53,250 nt of DNA from the NCBI GenBank assembly GCA_025363755.1, contig JANYLQ010000060.1:1-53250 (forward strand). Direction: 5' to 3'. Made by a program: the position numbers and the translations under genes. Below, piece by piece: positions 25,844 to 31,710 of this stretch. The DNA is from Hyphomicrobiales bacterium. Its GTDB lineage: Bacteria > Pseudomonadota > Alphaproteobacteria > Rhizobiales > Aestuariivirgaceae. Within the stretch, counting starts at the first letter, position 1, and each line of letters starts with the position of its first letter. The notes under the pieces are model-generated. The model ran no database searches and was not told the origin of the DNA. It saw only the letters and a program-made list of their open reading frames with translations.

Positions 25844-25909
25844 GTCCTCTACCGCTTGCGGGAGAGGAAAGGGGCCTATGAGCGTCAGCGAAATGGGATA
25901 GGTGAGGGG
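25844..25909 (+). repeat. Solo copy of the CCTCTACCGC...GGTGAGGGG palindromic repeat
   Basis: A 66-bp unit that begins GTCCTCTACCGC, pairs with GCGGGAGAGG to form a strong hairpin (one A:G mismatch in the stem) and ends GGGATAGGTGAGGGG. It is closely similar to the two inverted copies at 30031-30093 and 30445-30511 that flank the DUF559 gene. Here it stands alone between pgi and lepA, with no gene attached. Confidence 0.85.
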
Positions 25910-27511: not shown

Positions 27512-27530
27512 TGCACCATCCCATAAATCC

Positions 27531-27614
27531 GTCATTCCAGCGAAGGCTGGAATCCAGCTCTACTTCAAATTCCGTATCTTTTGCTAGCTGGATCCCTGCT
27601 TTCGCAGGGATGAC
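27531..27614. repeat. GTCATTCC palindromic repeat pair (between pheT and pgi)
   Basis: Two facing copies: GTCATTCCAGCGAAGGCTGG at the left and its variant CCCTGCTTTCGCAGGGATGAC at the right. Each forms its own small hairpin, and the two ends can also pair over the whole unit (AGCTGGATTCC-like arms). It belongs to a family seen twice more (31617 and 39109). Confidence 0.85.
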
Positions 27615-27641: not shown

Positions 27642-30014
27642 TTATGTCCGCAACATCGCTCCCACGGCCTTCGCCGCAGTCGCTACAATCTTGGCCGATA
27701 TTGCCTCAATGTCAGCGTCGGTGAAAGTCTTATCCTTGGGCTGCAATGTCACCTCGACGGCGAGAGATGTTTTACCGCCTTCCAACTTATAAAGATCAAA
27801 CACATTGACATCGGCAATCAAAACTTTGTCCACGCCCTTCACAGCTTTGACAAGTTCTGCGGCTTGCACTTTATCATCAACAACAAAGGCAAAGTCACGC
27901 GACAGCGGCATGAGATCAGAAAAGTTCAGTGCGGCGCGCGCGTTTGATTTGGCCTTTGAGGCTGGCAGTCTGTTCAAAATAATTTCAAACGCCACCAGAG
28001 GCCCTTTCACATCCATCGCCTGCAATACACGCGGATGGATTTCGCCAAAATACGCAAGTTTGTTTTGCGGGCCCATTTGAATGGTGCCGGAACGACCCGG
28101 ATGGAACCAAGCGGGTGCGCCGGAAACAACTTGCAATGAGGCGACAGCCAGACCGCAAGCTTCAAGCACGTTCAGCACATCGGCCTTCACGTCAAAGACA
28201 TCCGCATCGCGCTTGCCGCCTTGGACGTTGCGCGACACAGCCGCACCACGGCGAATGCCACCTGCGCGCAATGTTTCATCCGTCGCCTTATCGCCCGCAT
28301 AGGCGTGGCCCACTTCAGCCAACATCAAATCTGCAAATCCCCGTGCCACATTGCGGCCTGCTGCAGCAATCAGATTAGGCAATAGTGAAGGCCGCATGTC
28401 AGTGAGTTCAGATGAAATTGCATTGCTGAGCTTTAATTCATTCAGCCCCCCACCAAATAATTTGGCATGGGCTTCCGGTAAAAACGCCCAAGTCACCGCC
28501 TCGTTGAAACCACGCGTTGCCAATGTGCGCCGTGCAGCCAGCATGCGCTTTTGCAACGGGTTGAGCACAGGCCGCGCTATATCATGAGGCCTGCTCATCG
28601 GCGCATTTTGGATATTCTCGAGGCCGTAAATGCGGCAGATTTCTTCCACCAGATCAGCCTCGCCTTTCACATCGGGCCGCCAGCTTGGTACATTTGCAAC
28701 GCCGTCTTCTGAAACCATAAAACCAAGATCACGCAATATGCGCAATTGATCCGTCCACCGAATATCAACACCACCTAGGGATTTCACGCGGGTCTTCCGT
28801 AAAGTGAAAGACCGTGCCGTATCAGGCAGAGCACCAGCAATCACCAGCTCGGAGGCTTCACCACCACACAATTCCAAAATCAAACGCGTAGCTATCTCAG
28901 CTCCTGTTTGTGTGAAGGCCGGATCAACGCCGCGTTCAAAACGGTAGCGCGCATCGGAAATAATCCCAAGCTTGCGGCCCGTTGCGGCCGTGGCTTGTGG
29001 ATCAAAATATGCAGCTTCGAGGAATACGTTGGTTGTAGTGTCCGAACAGCCAGATGCCTCGCCACCCATAATACCAGCAATGCCTTCGGCGGCTCTATCG
29101 TCAGCAATCACCGTCATCTGGTCGGTCAGCGTGTAAGTCTTGCCATCCAGCGCCAATAAGCTTTCGCCAGTTTTGGCTAGGCGCGCGGAAATATGCCCGT
29201 GCACTTTATCAGCATCAAACACATGCAACGGACGGCCATAGGTGAAGGTGATGTAATTGGTGATATCAACCAAAGTTGAAATCGGACGAAGCCCGATAGA
29301 TTTCAAACGCGCTTGCAGCCAAGCTGGCGATGGCCCGTTTTTTACGCCTTTGAAATAACGCCCCACAAACAGAGCGCAGGAACTTTTCTCATCAACAGCA
29401 ACATTGATCGGCGATTTAAATATGCCTTTCACAGGCGCTGTATTGAGCGGCTTTAATGTGCCCAAACCCTTGGCCGCGAGATCACGCGCCAATCCGTGAA
29501 TGCCCAAAGCGTCCGGCCTATTGGCCGTCACCTTGATATAAATCATCGGATCATCAAGGCCGAGTGCTTTCACCGCAGGCGTACCCACTGGCCAATCACC
29601 CTGCACATCAATAATGCCGTCATGCTCTTCCGACAGCAGCAACTCGCGCTCTGAACACATCATGCCTTGCGATTCTTGGCCGCGGATCGAACCTTTTTCG
29701 AGCGCGATTTTAGTGGCCGGAATCACAGCACCCGGCAGCGCAATAATCGCCTTCATGCCAGCCCGCGCATTCGGCGCACCACAAACAACTTGGATCACGC
29801 CAGTATCGGTTTCCACCTTGCATAGCCGCAGCTTATCCGCATTGGGATGCTTCTCGGCTTCCAACACATAGGCAACTTTGAATGCGGCGAGTTCTTGCGT
29901 GCGGTCAGAGACTTCCTCAACCTCAAGGCCAACGCCAATCAAGCCTTCGCAGATTTGATCGAGGGTCGCCGTGGTGTCGAGATGTTCTTTAAGCCAGGAG
30001 AGCGTGAATTTCAT
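27642..30014 (-). CDS. pheT: Phenylalanyl-tRNA synthetase, beta subunit
   Basis: A 790-residue subunit of the alpha2-beta2 enzyme that charges tRNA-Phe. An N-terminal OB-fold tRNA-binding domain (about 40-150, with HPNADKLRLCKVETD and VVCGAPNARAGM), the B3/B4 editing domain, the B5 domain (RKTRVKSLGGVDI) and a C-terminal anticodon-binding FDX-ACB domain (about 700-790, DFAFVVDDKVQAAELV) are present in the usual order. A TTTAGGA binding site precedes the ATG. Normally it follows pheS closely; here a 485-bp repeat cassette with a DUF559 gene sits between them, all on one strand, so the operon may still be read through. Confidence 0.97.
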   Translation of the reverse strand: MKFTLSWLKEHLDTTATLDQICEGLIGVGLEVEEVSDRTQELAAFKVAYVLEAEKHPNADKLRLCKVETDTGVIQVVCGAPNARAGMKAIIALPGAVIPATKIALEKGSIRGQESQGMMCSERELLLSEEHDGIIDVQGDWPVGTPAVKALGLDDPMIYIKVTANRPDALGIHGLARDLAAKGLGTLKPLNTAPVKGIFKSPINVAVDEKSSCALFVGRYFKGVKNGPSPAWLQARLKSIGLRPISTLVDITNYITFTYGRPLHVFDADKVHGHISARLAKTGESLLALDGKTYTLTDQMTVIADDRAAEGIAGIMGGEASGCSDTTTNVFLEAAYFDPQATAATGRKLGIISDARYRFERGVDPAFTQTGAEIATRLILELCGGEASELVIAGALPDTARSFTLRKTRVKSLGGVDIRWTDQLRILRDLGFMVSEDGVANVPSWRPDVKGEADLVEEICRIYGLENIQNAPMSRPHDIARPVLNPLQKRMLAARRTLATRGFNEAVTWAFLPEAHAKLFGGGLNELKLSNAISSELTDMRPSLLPNLIAAAGRNVARGFADLMLAEVGHAYAGDKATDETLRAGGIRRGAAVSRNVQGGKRDADVFDVKADVLNVLEACGLAVASLQVVSGAPAWFHPGRSGTIQMGPQNKLAYFGEIHPRVLQAMDVKGPLVAFEIILNRLPASKAKSNARAALNFSDLMPLSRDFAFVVDDKVQAAELVKAVKGVDKVLIADVNVFDLYKLEGGKTSLAVEVTLQPKDKTFTDADIEAISAKIVATAAKAVGAMLRT

Positions 30015-30030
30015 GATTGAGTTCCTAAAT

Positions 30031-30093
30031 GTCCTCTACCGCACAGCGGGAGAGGAAGGGGACCCGTTGCGCAGCAATGGGGGAGGTGAGGGG
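30031..30093 (+). repeat. Left inverted repeat of the DUF559 cassette
   Basis: A 63-bp unit beginning GTCCTCTACCGCACAGCGGG and ending AGGTGAGGG. Its first 27 bases are identical to the reverse complement of the right copy (30445-30511); with the adjoining AT the match is 29 bases. It ends 5 bp after the DUF559 stop codon. Confidence 0.9.
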
Positions 30094-30098
30094 CAGTA

Positions 30099-30443
30099 TC
30101 ATTTCAACGCCTCGGCAATTAAAGTCAAAACTTCATCCATACCTTCTTTGATTTCAGCGTTGTGAAAGCGGACGACTTTATAGCCTTGAGATTCAAGATA
30201 AATTGTGCGGCGCTTATCATTTGAGACTTCAGCCTCAGTTGAATGTGTCCAACCATCAATTTCAATAATCAATTTTCTTTCGAGACAAATGAAATCCACG
30301 ATATAGGGCCCGATTGGGACTTGCCTGCGAAACTTCTGCTTTTCTAATTGACGATTGCGCAATTGCTCCCACAGGCGTTTTTCGGCAGGTGTGGAATCGA
30401 CGCGGAGTTGTTTTGCGGTTTCGAGTTTTTGGCCTTCCCTCAT
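30099..30443 (-). CDS. DUF559 endonuclease-like protein
   Basis: A 114-residue protein of the DUF559 family, related to the Vsr mismatch endonuclease and the wider PD-(D/E)XK nuclease fold. The candidate active site is in IGPYIVDFICLERKLIIEID: Asp of VDF followed by Glu-x-Asp of IEIDG. GYKVVRFHNAEI is the other conserved block. The N-terminal RVDSTPAEKRLWEQLRNRQL is typical. The gene fills nearly all the space between two inverted repeats, and its ribosome binding site (AGGTGAGG, just before ATG) is part of the right repeat. It interrupts the pheS-pheT pair. Its function is not established; repeat mobility or repair is a guess. Confidence 0.88.
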   Translation of the reverse strand: MREGQKLETAKQLRVDSTPAEKRLWEQLRNRQLEKQKFRRQVPIGPYIVDFICLERKLIIEIDGWTHSTEAEVSNDKRRTIYLESQGYKVVRFHNAEIKEGMDEVLTLIAEALK

Positions 30444-30444
30444 A

Positions 30445-30511
30445 CCCTCACCTATCCCACATTGCTAAAGCAATGCGGGCCCCTTTCCTCTCCCGCTGTG
30501 CGGTAGAGGAC
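30445..30511 (-). repeat. Right inverted repeat of the DUF559 cassette
   Basis: A 67-bp unit, inverted relative to the left copy. Its AGGTGAGGG end lies one base from the DUF559 ATG and so supplies its ribosome binding site. Its outer end (GGTAGAGGAC) touches the pheS stop codon. The stem halves CCTCTACCGC and GCGGGAGAGG form a strong hairpin. Confidence 0.9.
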
Positions 30512-30512
30512 A

Positions 30513-31595
30513 TCAAGAAAGTCCCCCCGCCAGTGTCGGCACCTGCAAGCTCCGGAAGCCGTAATGCCTTAACCAGCGCAGATCACTTTCAAAAAACGCG
30601 CGCAAATCTGGGATGCCATATTTCAACATCGCAATCCGGTCTATCCCCATGCCGAAGGCAAAGCCTTGGTATTTGTCAGGATCAAGCCCACCTGCGCGAA
30701 TAACATTGGGATGCACCATGCCGCTGCCTAAAATCTCCAGCCACTTATCACCCGTACCAATTTTCAATTGCCCGCCTTCGCGCGAATAATTGATGTCCAC
30801 TTCCATTGAAGGTTCAGTGAACGGGAAATGCGAGGCGCGAAAACGCATCTTCACATCATCGACCTCAAAGAAGGCTTTGCAGAATTCTTCTAAAATCCAT
30901 TTGAGGTTGCCCATATGGGTTGTCTCATCAATCACCAATGCTTCAACTTGATTGAACATTGGCGTGTGCGTCATATCCGAGTCAGAGCGAAACGTGCGGC
31001 CGGGTGCTATAATCCGAATGGGTGGTTTCTGGCTCAGCATCGTGCGAATTTGCACAGGCGAAGTATGCGTGCGCAGAACCATACGTGAGCCATCGGGCTT
31101 TTCGTTGAAATAGAATGTGTCGTGTTCTTGCCGCGCCGGGTGATCAGCTGGCATATTGAGCGCGTCGAAATTATGAAAGTCATCTTCAATATGCGGGCCT
31201 TCAGCCACGCTGAACCCGAGATCGCCAAAAATCTGCACCACCTCTTCCCAGACTTGGGACACGGGATGAATGGTGCCAGCACTTTGCGGGCGCACCGGCA
31301 ATGTCACATCAATTTTTTCAGACACCAACCGCGCTTCTAAAGCCGCCTCGGCAAACACAGATTTCTTCGCCGATAAAGCCTCCGTCACTTTATCTTTCAA
31401 AATATTCAGCGCCGCACCCGCCGCCTTTCGCTCATCGGGTGCCATTTTGCCGAGTGCGGCCATGCGCTCTGAAATCACGCCTTTCTTGCCCAAAGCGGAA
31501 ACGCGAATGGCCTCAACACCTGCTTCATCCGCAGCGGCGGAGACTTGCGCTAATAATTCTTGTTCGAGTGCATCAAGCGAAGTTTGGTCAGTCAT
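30513..31595 (-). CDS. pheS: Phenylalanyl-tRNA synthetase, alpha subunit
   Basis: A 360-residue catalytic subunit. An N-terminal coiled-coil arm (about 1-90, rich in A, E and K) is followed by the class II synthetase core: motif 2 region [20 protein letters not shown], the phenylalanine-pocket sequence [11 protein letters not shown] and motif 3 [20 protein letters not shown]. It pairs with PheT to charge tRNA-Phe. The stop codon directly abuts the right repeat of the DUF559 cassette. Upstream lies a GTCATTCC repeat pair and the rplT terminator. Confidence 0.97.
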
Positions 31596-31616
31596 TCAAA
31601 ATCCAACTTTTCATTC

Positions 31617-31685
31617 GTCATTCCCGCGAAGGCGGGAATCTCAGTTTTGTCGCGTAACGCAGATTCCCGCCTTCGCGGGAATGAC
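31617..31685. repeat. GTCATTCC palindromic repeat pair (between rplT and pheS)
   Basis: A 69-bp unit with GTCATTCCCGCGAAGGCGGG at one end and its exact reverse complement at the other, around a short unique centre. Each end folds into a hairpin with a GCGAAGGC top. It lies between the rplT terminator and the pheS start. Confidence 0.9.
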
Positions 31686-31710
31686 GTTGGTGGTGTTTTG
31701 CCGGCCTTAG

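Follow-up and report, generated by a model that had tools for sequence, protein, structure and literature searches.

Among described systems, the closest to the locus analysed here are the REP and REPIN elements with their RAYT transposases (TnpA-REP), in which the enzyme gene is flanked by inverted palindromic repeats, gene-less doublets are dispersed, and the repeat type is inherited together with the enzyme. In other palindromic repeats a hairpin is followed by a third strand, and a triplex of this kind needs a tail that mirrors the 3′ arm of the hairpin. The RIMEs are palindromic intergenic elements of rhizobia. In the accessible part of the REP literature (PMC3733652), REPs carry a GTAG tag, and those with a CGTC tag are said to be without a dedicated transposase. 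Intrastrand triplex motifs (TM/PIT) were described by Holder et al. in 2015, for example as a hairpin CCCTCTCCC..GGGAGAGGG followed by GGGTGAGGG; in the accessible portion of that report (PMC4666352), one such motif occurs in over 260 genomes, a link between triplex repeats and genome instability is drawn, no mobility gene is described beside the E. coli sites, and the five triplex pairs of E. coli K-12 always combine a type A motif with a type B motif.

The window, a stretch of 53,250 nucleotides from a Hyphomicrobiales bacterium, contains a unit in which a DUF559 gene is enclosed by two repeat arms between pheS and pheT (Table 1). A DUF559 gene between inverted repeats had been reported in the sequence-only reading, and this was borne out, far above chance, by the PF04480 match of the intact gene and by blastn, in which the two arms were aligned in inverted orientation with 86% identity (E 6e-14). 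The outer 29 bases, claimed to match perfectly, were identical on alignment; the repeat lengths, given as 63 and 67 bp, were measured as 64 and 69 bp, and of the two gene spacings the single base between the start codon and the right repeat stood, the stop codon lying 6 and not 5 bases from the left repeat. Both arms point at the gene with their GGTGAGGG ends; for the repeat end next to the start codon, proposed earlier as the ribosome binding site, GAGGG is found only 1 base from the ATG, closer than the usual spacing. Each arm consists of two DNA hairpins, an outer and an inner one (z of -4.7 and -6.3; none of 200 shuffles reached this stability). In an ORF-level view of the locus, neither an intron or intein nor a methyltransferase gene was noticed next to the DUF559 gene. 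In 12 of the 28 relatives with a readable junction pheS and pheT share 4 bases, so the unit does split normally adjacent genes, as had been proposed. CGTC-tagged REP-like palindromes also flank the phe genes of the window (27530-27554, 31616-31646 and 31656-31686), and similar ones were seen in the pheS-pheT gap of two relatives, G017 and G005.

Table 1. Features of the unit between pheS and pheT and of a related gene-less copy (window positions).
Feature	Position	Strand	Details
DUF559 (PD-(D/E)XK, Vsr-like) nuclease gene	30099..30443	-	114 aa; PF04480 E 3e-37
Repeat arm, 5′ side of DUF559 gene	30445..30513	-	outer hairpin 30486-30510; inner hairpin 30456-30479; GGTGAGGG end towards gene
Repeat arm, other side of DUF559 gene	30029..30092	+	blastn, folding
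pheS	30513..31595	-	stop codon shares one base with outer end of unit
pheT	27642..30014	-	unit between pheT and pheS
Gene-less copy of window repeat, between pgi and lepA	25844..25908	+	blastn; both arms intact in G003

The repeats around DUF559 genes are, as judged from their sequence, of the intrastrand-triplex type. They resemble TM/PIT as described in the accessible portion of PMC4666352 in their pyrimidine-purine hairpin followed by a G-rich third strand and in their inverted pairs of two subtypes; the DUF559 partner is an addition, and the window family differs by an extra hairpin in the linker. A downstream 9-mer with a mirror match at 8 or 9 positions was found for 357 of 902 hairpins near DUF559 genes (40%), compared with 15% when the arms were exchanged. 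In the window genome the variable arm base (G or A) agrees with the matching tail base in all 28 arms read (19 G-G, 9 A-A; Fisher p 1.4e-7, overstated since the repeat copies are related), which is the covariation expected of a three-stranded structure, here predicted from sequence. A triplex-type purine hairpin lies within 250 bp in 157 of 182 DUF559 rows and in 3 of 180 random stretches, and in none of 30 Vsr and 59 GIY-YIG loci. Rfam gave no match at the window repeats and one sub-threshold match elsewhere.

In the window genome (G000), blastn with the right arm gave 29 matches, which, read with their flanks, form 18 places: the pheS-pheT unit, 12 inverted doublets without a gene and 5 single arms. 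A gene lies between the arms in only one of the 13 inverted pairs of this family, that of the pheS-pheT unit, and the spacer was 18-24 bp in the eight doublets measured. The gene-less copy reported earlier at 25844-25909 exists, but it is a decayed doublet (25844-25908) and not a simple solo copy, because the sister genome G003 has both arms there. In many of the doublets (L004-L032) a GTCCTC..GGTGAGGG arm is combined with a GTCTTC..GATGAGGG arm, and these mixed pairs resemble the type A and type B pairing of E. coli K-12 in the accessible portion of PMC4666352. A count of places common to G000 and G003 (5 of 18) was discarded: the G003 list had been drawn up with a strict pattern, which made the count unreliable, and the place at 25844, scored as confined to G000, is actually shared.

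Two further DUF559 genes of the window genome, on C47 and C2, each have repeats of another family on both sides, arranged as a whole doublet per side with the inverted copies facing across the gene (inverted-repeat scores 48 and 68). With up to 3 mismatches allowed, 8 matches in this genome were found for the C47 repeat and 5 for the C2 repeat, of which 4 and 2, respectively, belong to the loci themselves; the reversed control pattern gave 0 in both cases. The window-family pattern has matches in 11 of 41 genomes, all of the genus. A count of solo repeats in genomes with and without the gene had been proposed as a check in the earlier reading, and the number of window-family copies is no simple reflection of the pheS-pheT gene: among genomes without that gene, G003 has 15 matches, but also four other DUF559 genes, and G005 and G011 have 3 and 2, and among genomes with it G013 has 4 and G001 and G006 have 1 each. 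These counts speak against a simple dose effect of the pheS-pheT gene and are a point against movement of the repeats by DUF559.

The framing of DUF559 genes by inverted repeats at other loci was scored by comparing 400 bp on each side of the gene, a score of 40 or more being taken as strong. Strong pairs flank 118 of 182 DUF559 loci, mostly picked best E-value first and not randomly, one locus being doubled in the pooled set (L046 and L173 are identical in sequence), compared with 1 of 208 control ORFs, which were longest-ORF picks on the same contigs and not called genes (62 of 270 picks near DUF559 were left out), and with none of the 30 best matches to Vsr, a related nuclease family. The expectation that other DUF559 genes are flanked in the same manner was upheld in both sets, with 42 of 57 loci in the first (genus and order) and 76 of 125 in the second (order, 11/26; named public genomes, 54/75; phylum, 11/24), after loci with less than 250 bp of flank had been left out (7/64 and 7/132). 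Control flanks were measured from ORF ends and DUF559 flanks from domain ends; the Vsr loci were run both ways with the same result (0/28 with the other flank definition). Named loci at or above the threshold include records titled Chloroflexi, Desulfobacteraceae, Nitrospirae and Planctomycetota, the MAG-derived loci of other phyla being possibly misassigned, and a Deinococcus plasmid locus has a strong pair with a score of 113 at slightly longer flanks. The 64 DUF559 loci without a strong inverted repeat count against the reading that DUF559 moves the repeats. One repeat family common to all DUF559 genes, as supposed in a check proposed by the sequence-only reading, was ruled out because the repeat differs between loci and between DUF559 lineages.

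The canonical triplex motif and DUF559 were scored in 397 Pseudomonadota genomes, of which 77 have both, 84 DUF559 only, 12 the motif only and 224 neither (OR 17.1, Fisher p 4.5e-24). Stratification by family gave an OR of 11.9 (p 5.6e-9; 16 informative families of 94), so that the co-occurrence across genomes, among the tests proposed earlier, held also within families, and the reversed control pattern of the motif had 0 matches in each of the 397 genomes. Of 23 genomes with at least 20 motifs, 22 have a DUF559 match with E of 1e-3 or better and 21 one with 1e-20 or better. The 12 of 89 repeat-bearing genomes with no DUF559 match, and the 84 of 161 DUF559 genomes without the canonical motif pattern, count against movement of the repeats by DUF559; many of the latter genomes likely carry other repeat families.

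Of 181 loci, the 142 with a mirror match at 8 or 9 positions could be given a repeat label, composed of hairpin-arm type and linker length. For these 142 loci the label changes 58 times on the DUF559 tree, compared with a mean of 85.0 (lowest 77) in 200 label shuffles, and within the genus 7 times for 32 loci, compared with 15.6 (lowest of 200, 12), the shuffles ignoring relatedness in both cases. In the genus, linker type alone gave a weak signal (2 changes compared with 3.9; 1 of 200 shuffles as low), and the host genome, used as a negative control label, gave none (25 changes compared with 25.5; 95 of 200 shuffles as low). Because label changes are few on the DUF559 tree and the host label is without signal, the repeat follows the nuclease and not the host.

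Whole units have been duplicated at unrelated sites in two genomes. The two units of G005 lie 8 kb apart and are 87% identical over 676 bp, with no other match in the 2.4-kb stretches compared, the homology beginning no more than 2 bases from the outer hairpin at one end and extending about 25 bp past it at the other. Those of G261 lie 5.7 kb apart and are 86% identical over 589 bp, the match stopping between a few and about 20 bases beyond the outer hairpins. Two further pairs were rejected as clean unit duplications: in G293 the shared stretch starts 54 bp ahead of the domain, at a point that has no repeat, and in G286 further repeat copies surround the shared stretch. A Sinorhizobium unit (doublet-DUF559-doublet, about 720 bp) is located between genes that are only 10 bp apart in Shinella, where the unit is absent and the flanks are 82% and 77% identical; the comparison would fit gain and loss of the unit alike. 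Together with the pheS-pheT overlap in 12 of 28 relatives and the gene-less doublets, this site shows, in answer to the comparison proposed earlier, that empty and gene-less sites exist. Inspection of the Shinella/Sinorhizobium site and of unit pairs by eye revealed no target-site duplication, which counts against the reading that DUF559 moves the repeats, and no empty site was found in Azospirillum, where the seven plasmids covering the site all include the gene region. Among genus gene pairs at 60% identity or more, 31 of 68 share flanking genes, which indicates vertical descent and likewise counts against that reading, and 37 do not; descent and movement of DUF559 genes both occur. The Sinorhizobium doublets around DUF559 look, by description, like the elements for which the name RIME is used in the accessible part of PMC2245857. 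The DUF559 gene of S. meliloti Ak57 has an annotated ISRm16 element (L273:3065-4228) close on its 3′ side, and this element lies inside a unit region otherwise shared with strain K101.

At the pheS-pheT junction, the DUF559 unit is present in four genomes of the genus (G000, G001, G006 and G013). Because their genes form a single clade (SH-aLRT 90 in a quick tree that left out the G034 gene), we read the unit as what would be one old insertion followed by several losses; a recent hop into the junction is ruled out by this clade. In G034, of another family, a DUF559 gene lies at the junction without clear repeats; G016 and G005 have gene-less doublets of another type in the gap, and G003, the nearest relative of the window genome, has an unrelated ORF. 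The sequence-only reading had named, as evidence against itself, a pheS-DUF559-pheT order inherited vertically throughout the order together with DUF559 genes that lack the repeats elsewhere, and neither was found. The junction is an insertion hotspot (L062-L091), other stretches, apparently small ORFs, being found there in several relatives.

The window DUF559 protein has conserved residues E21, D50, E61, D63, H67 and D76, of which the first five are all present in 179 of 181 proteins (E or D being accepted at 61 and 63), and its earlier assignment to the PD-(D/E)XK/Vsr relatives agrees with the profile match and with these catalytic residues. It is related in sequence to Vsr and to Vsr-like homing endonucleases, with which it shares conserved acidic and histidine residues, but the score of the NCBIfam vsr profile, 17.3 bits, is below the cut-off of 97.85, and the 30 Vsr loci are without flanking inverted repeats. 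The nearest solved structures are 3hrl (E 1.6e-35), a DUF559 relative, and 3r3p, titled 'Mobile intron protein' (E 9e-5), which we take to be I-Bth0305I, whose motif is presumably the one called EDxHD; a PADLOC homing endonuclease was matched at 6.6e-7. No transposase family was found among the profile matches of the window protein, neither an HUH (Y1) nor a DDE domain. The unit is therefore unlike an IS element or MITE with a DDE transposase, also in that no target-site duplication was seen at the sites inspected. The dN/dS of DUF559 genes was 0.08-0.19 in eight of nine pairs, the G005 duplicates among them (the ninth was saturated), and 0.41, 0.29 and 0.04 in three further within-genome pairs.

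DUF559 is probably the dedicated nuclease of its palindromic triplex-type repeats, in a manner like that of RAYT and REP without being a member of that system. The likeness to RAYT/REP, as far as the accessible part of PMC3733652 describes it, lies in the enzyme gene between inverted palindromic repeats, in the dispersed gene-less doublets and in the repeat type inherited with the enzyme. The differences lie in the enzyme, a DUF559 PD-(D/E)XK nuclease and not an HUH tyrosine transposase (Y1), in the repeats, each a purine hairpin with a mirror-symmetric G-rich tail, and in their ends, which in the window are GTCCTC and GGTGAGGG in place of the GTAG tag of REPs (PMC3733652, accessible part). 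The arrangement itself, that of enzyme-associated palindromic repeats, has precedent in RAYT/REP; the enzyme family differs by profile matches. The proposal that nuclease and palindromic repeat belong together as a single genetic unit, similar to RAYT/REP apart from the class of enzyme, is supported by the flanks, the empty sites and the co-occurrence; that the nuclease itself moves the repeats is what we infer from them. Because the anatomy (a framed enzyme, short-spacer gene-less doublets and a co-inherited repeat type) is that of RAYT/REP, DUF559 probably recognises the folded or double-stranded form of its cognate repeat and nicks or cuts the ends of doublets. Through this cutting, doublets would be copied in trans to further intergenic sites, as would, on rare occasions and in cis, the unit that bears the gene, a process modelled on what RAYT transposases are thought to do for REP/REPIN, and the DUF559 gene would afterwards persist largely by vertical descent.

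In view of the enzyme relatives of DUF559 (3r3p and the PADLOC homing endonuclease), the main rival is a homing-like selfish gene, in which DUF559 would cut an unoccupied site or a gene-less doublet and homologous repair would copy the unit in, the repeats serving as homology arms or ends and not being moved by the enzyme. Such a gene would be expected to sit, as it does, at the position of the spacer in gene-less doublets, and it would suit the filling of the same pheS-pheT gap by gene-bearing units and by gene-less doublets of another type in different relatives. Homing nevertheless seems unlikely to us, since it accounts for the spread of the gene but not easily for gene-less doublets at unrelated sites, since units were duplicated at sites without shared flanks, and since the ORF-level view of the window locus brought neither an intron nor an intein to notice. 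Still less probable is a role in genome maintenance, in which DUF559 would process the hairpins or triplexes of the repeats, or mismatches in them, and would be kept nearby because the repeats, spread by other means, are harmful without it; a trans-acting repair enzyme needs neither inverted framing nor a repeat type of its own when moving, although the Vsr-like active site, the purifying selection on the gene and the tie of triplex repeats to genome instability (PMC4666352, accessible portion) are in its favour. So is the Caulobacter DUF559 protein VsrA, which in the accessible part of PMC12907096 is reported to be responsible for an SOS response when a methyltransferase is absent and is proposed as a mismatch-repair enzyme, a proposal that counts against movement of the repeats by DUF559. 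That repeats merely insert between genes anyway near small nuclease genes, or that the gene is cargo of repeats moved otherwise, was already disfavoured and is very improbable, for although such repeats are dispersed in the genome and 64 of 182 DUF559 loci are without a strong pair, only one of the 208 control ORFs and none of the 30 Vsr loci are framed, the repeat class differs with the nuclease class, and the repeat type is co-inherited with the nuclease on the tree.

If DUF559 is the nuclease that moves its repeats, a mismatch-repair or homing fold would have been turned into a mobility enzyme for non-coding elements, which would be of a new kind; if it is not, a nuclease travelling with its own repeat type requires another explanation. 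The component parts are known and the pairing of nuclease and repeat appears to be new: no published link between DUF559 or GIY-YIG genes and such repeats was found among the matches listed, which covered chiefly freely accessible literature, in part, and GIY-YIG more thinly.

The sole control ORF framed by a strong inverted pair, L094:8942-9313, turned out to be a gene for a GIY-YIG nuclease (PF01541, E 9e-14). Among its relatives (L330-L399; 59 testable of 70 loci, a set without control ORFs of its own), 35 of 59 have an inverted-repeat score of at least 40, comprising 18 of 30 close and 17 of 29 distant ones. Motifs of the CCTGAG/CTTCGA type are found at 23 of 30 close relatives, compared with 20 of 180 random stretches and 11 of 182 DUF559 loci, and a C/T-rich arm motif lies within 400 bp of 1 of the 30 close relatives; at distant relatives, CGTC-type repeats are found at 13 of 29 with a loose motif within 400 bp and at 4 of 29 with a strict one within 250 bp. 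The GIY-YIG repeats, of the CCTGAG..CGAAGG type and partly of the CGTC type, form a second nuclease-repeat pairing. It is quite possible, though we would stop short of calling it probable, that several small solo nucleases of unrelated families, DUF559 and GIY-YIG at the least, make up a general class alongside RAYT/REP, in which every nuclease has, and spreads, a palindromic-repeat superfamily of its own. If so, this class would explain many orphan bacterial repeats, namely triplex motifs, CCTGAG..CGAAGG repeats and some CGTC-tagged REPs, and DUF559 would be a DNA-mobility enzyme of a previously undescribed kind.

For the triplex motif, a widespread repeat without a known partner enzyme, DUF559 may be what spreads it, and the link makes the origin of the repeat testable in E. 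coli through ycjD, the DUF559 gene of that species. A 2005 survey counts YcjD as an already known PD-(D/E)XK superfamily protein, as given in the accessible part of PMC1189080. Places covering at least 80% of the query were found in 3361 of 5426 E. coli genomes, and ycjD was carried by all 37 such rows of a spread listing. In the four sapF-ycjD-fabI stretches scanned (L262, L263, L270 and L271), a triplex motif lies just downstream of ycjD. A clean empty site in E. coli was sought and rejected, the three ycjD-less strains examined having efflux genes beside sapF; a swap of ycjD with the eef operon is described in the accessible part of PMC12817139. In Klebsiella (L264:1997-2281), a DUF559 copy in two frames, apparently decayed, is still located beside a triplex motif.
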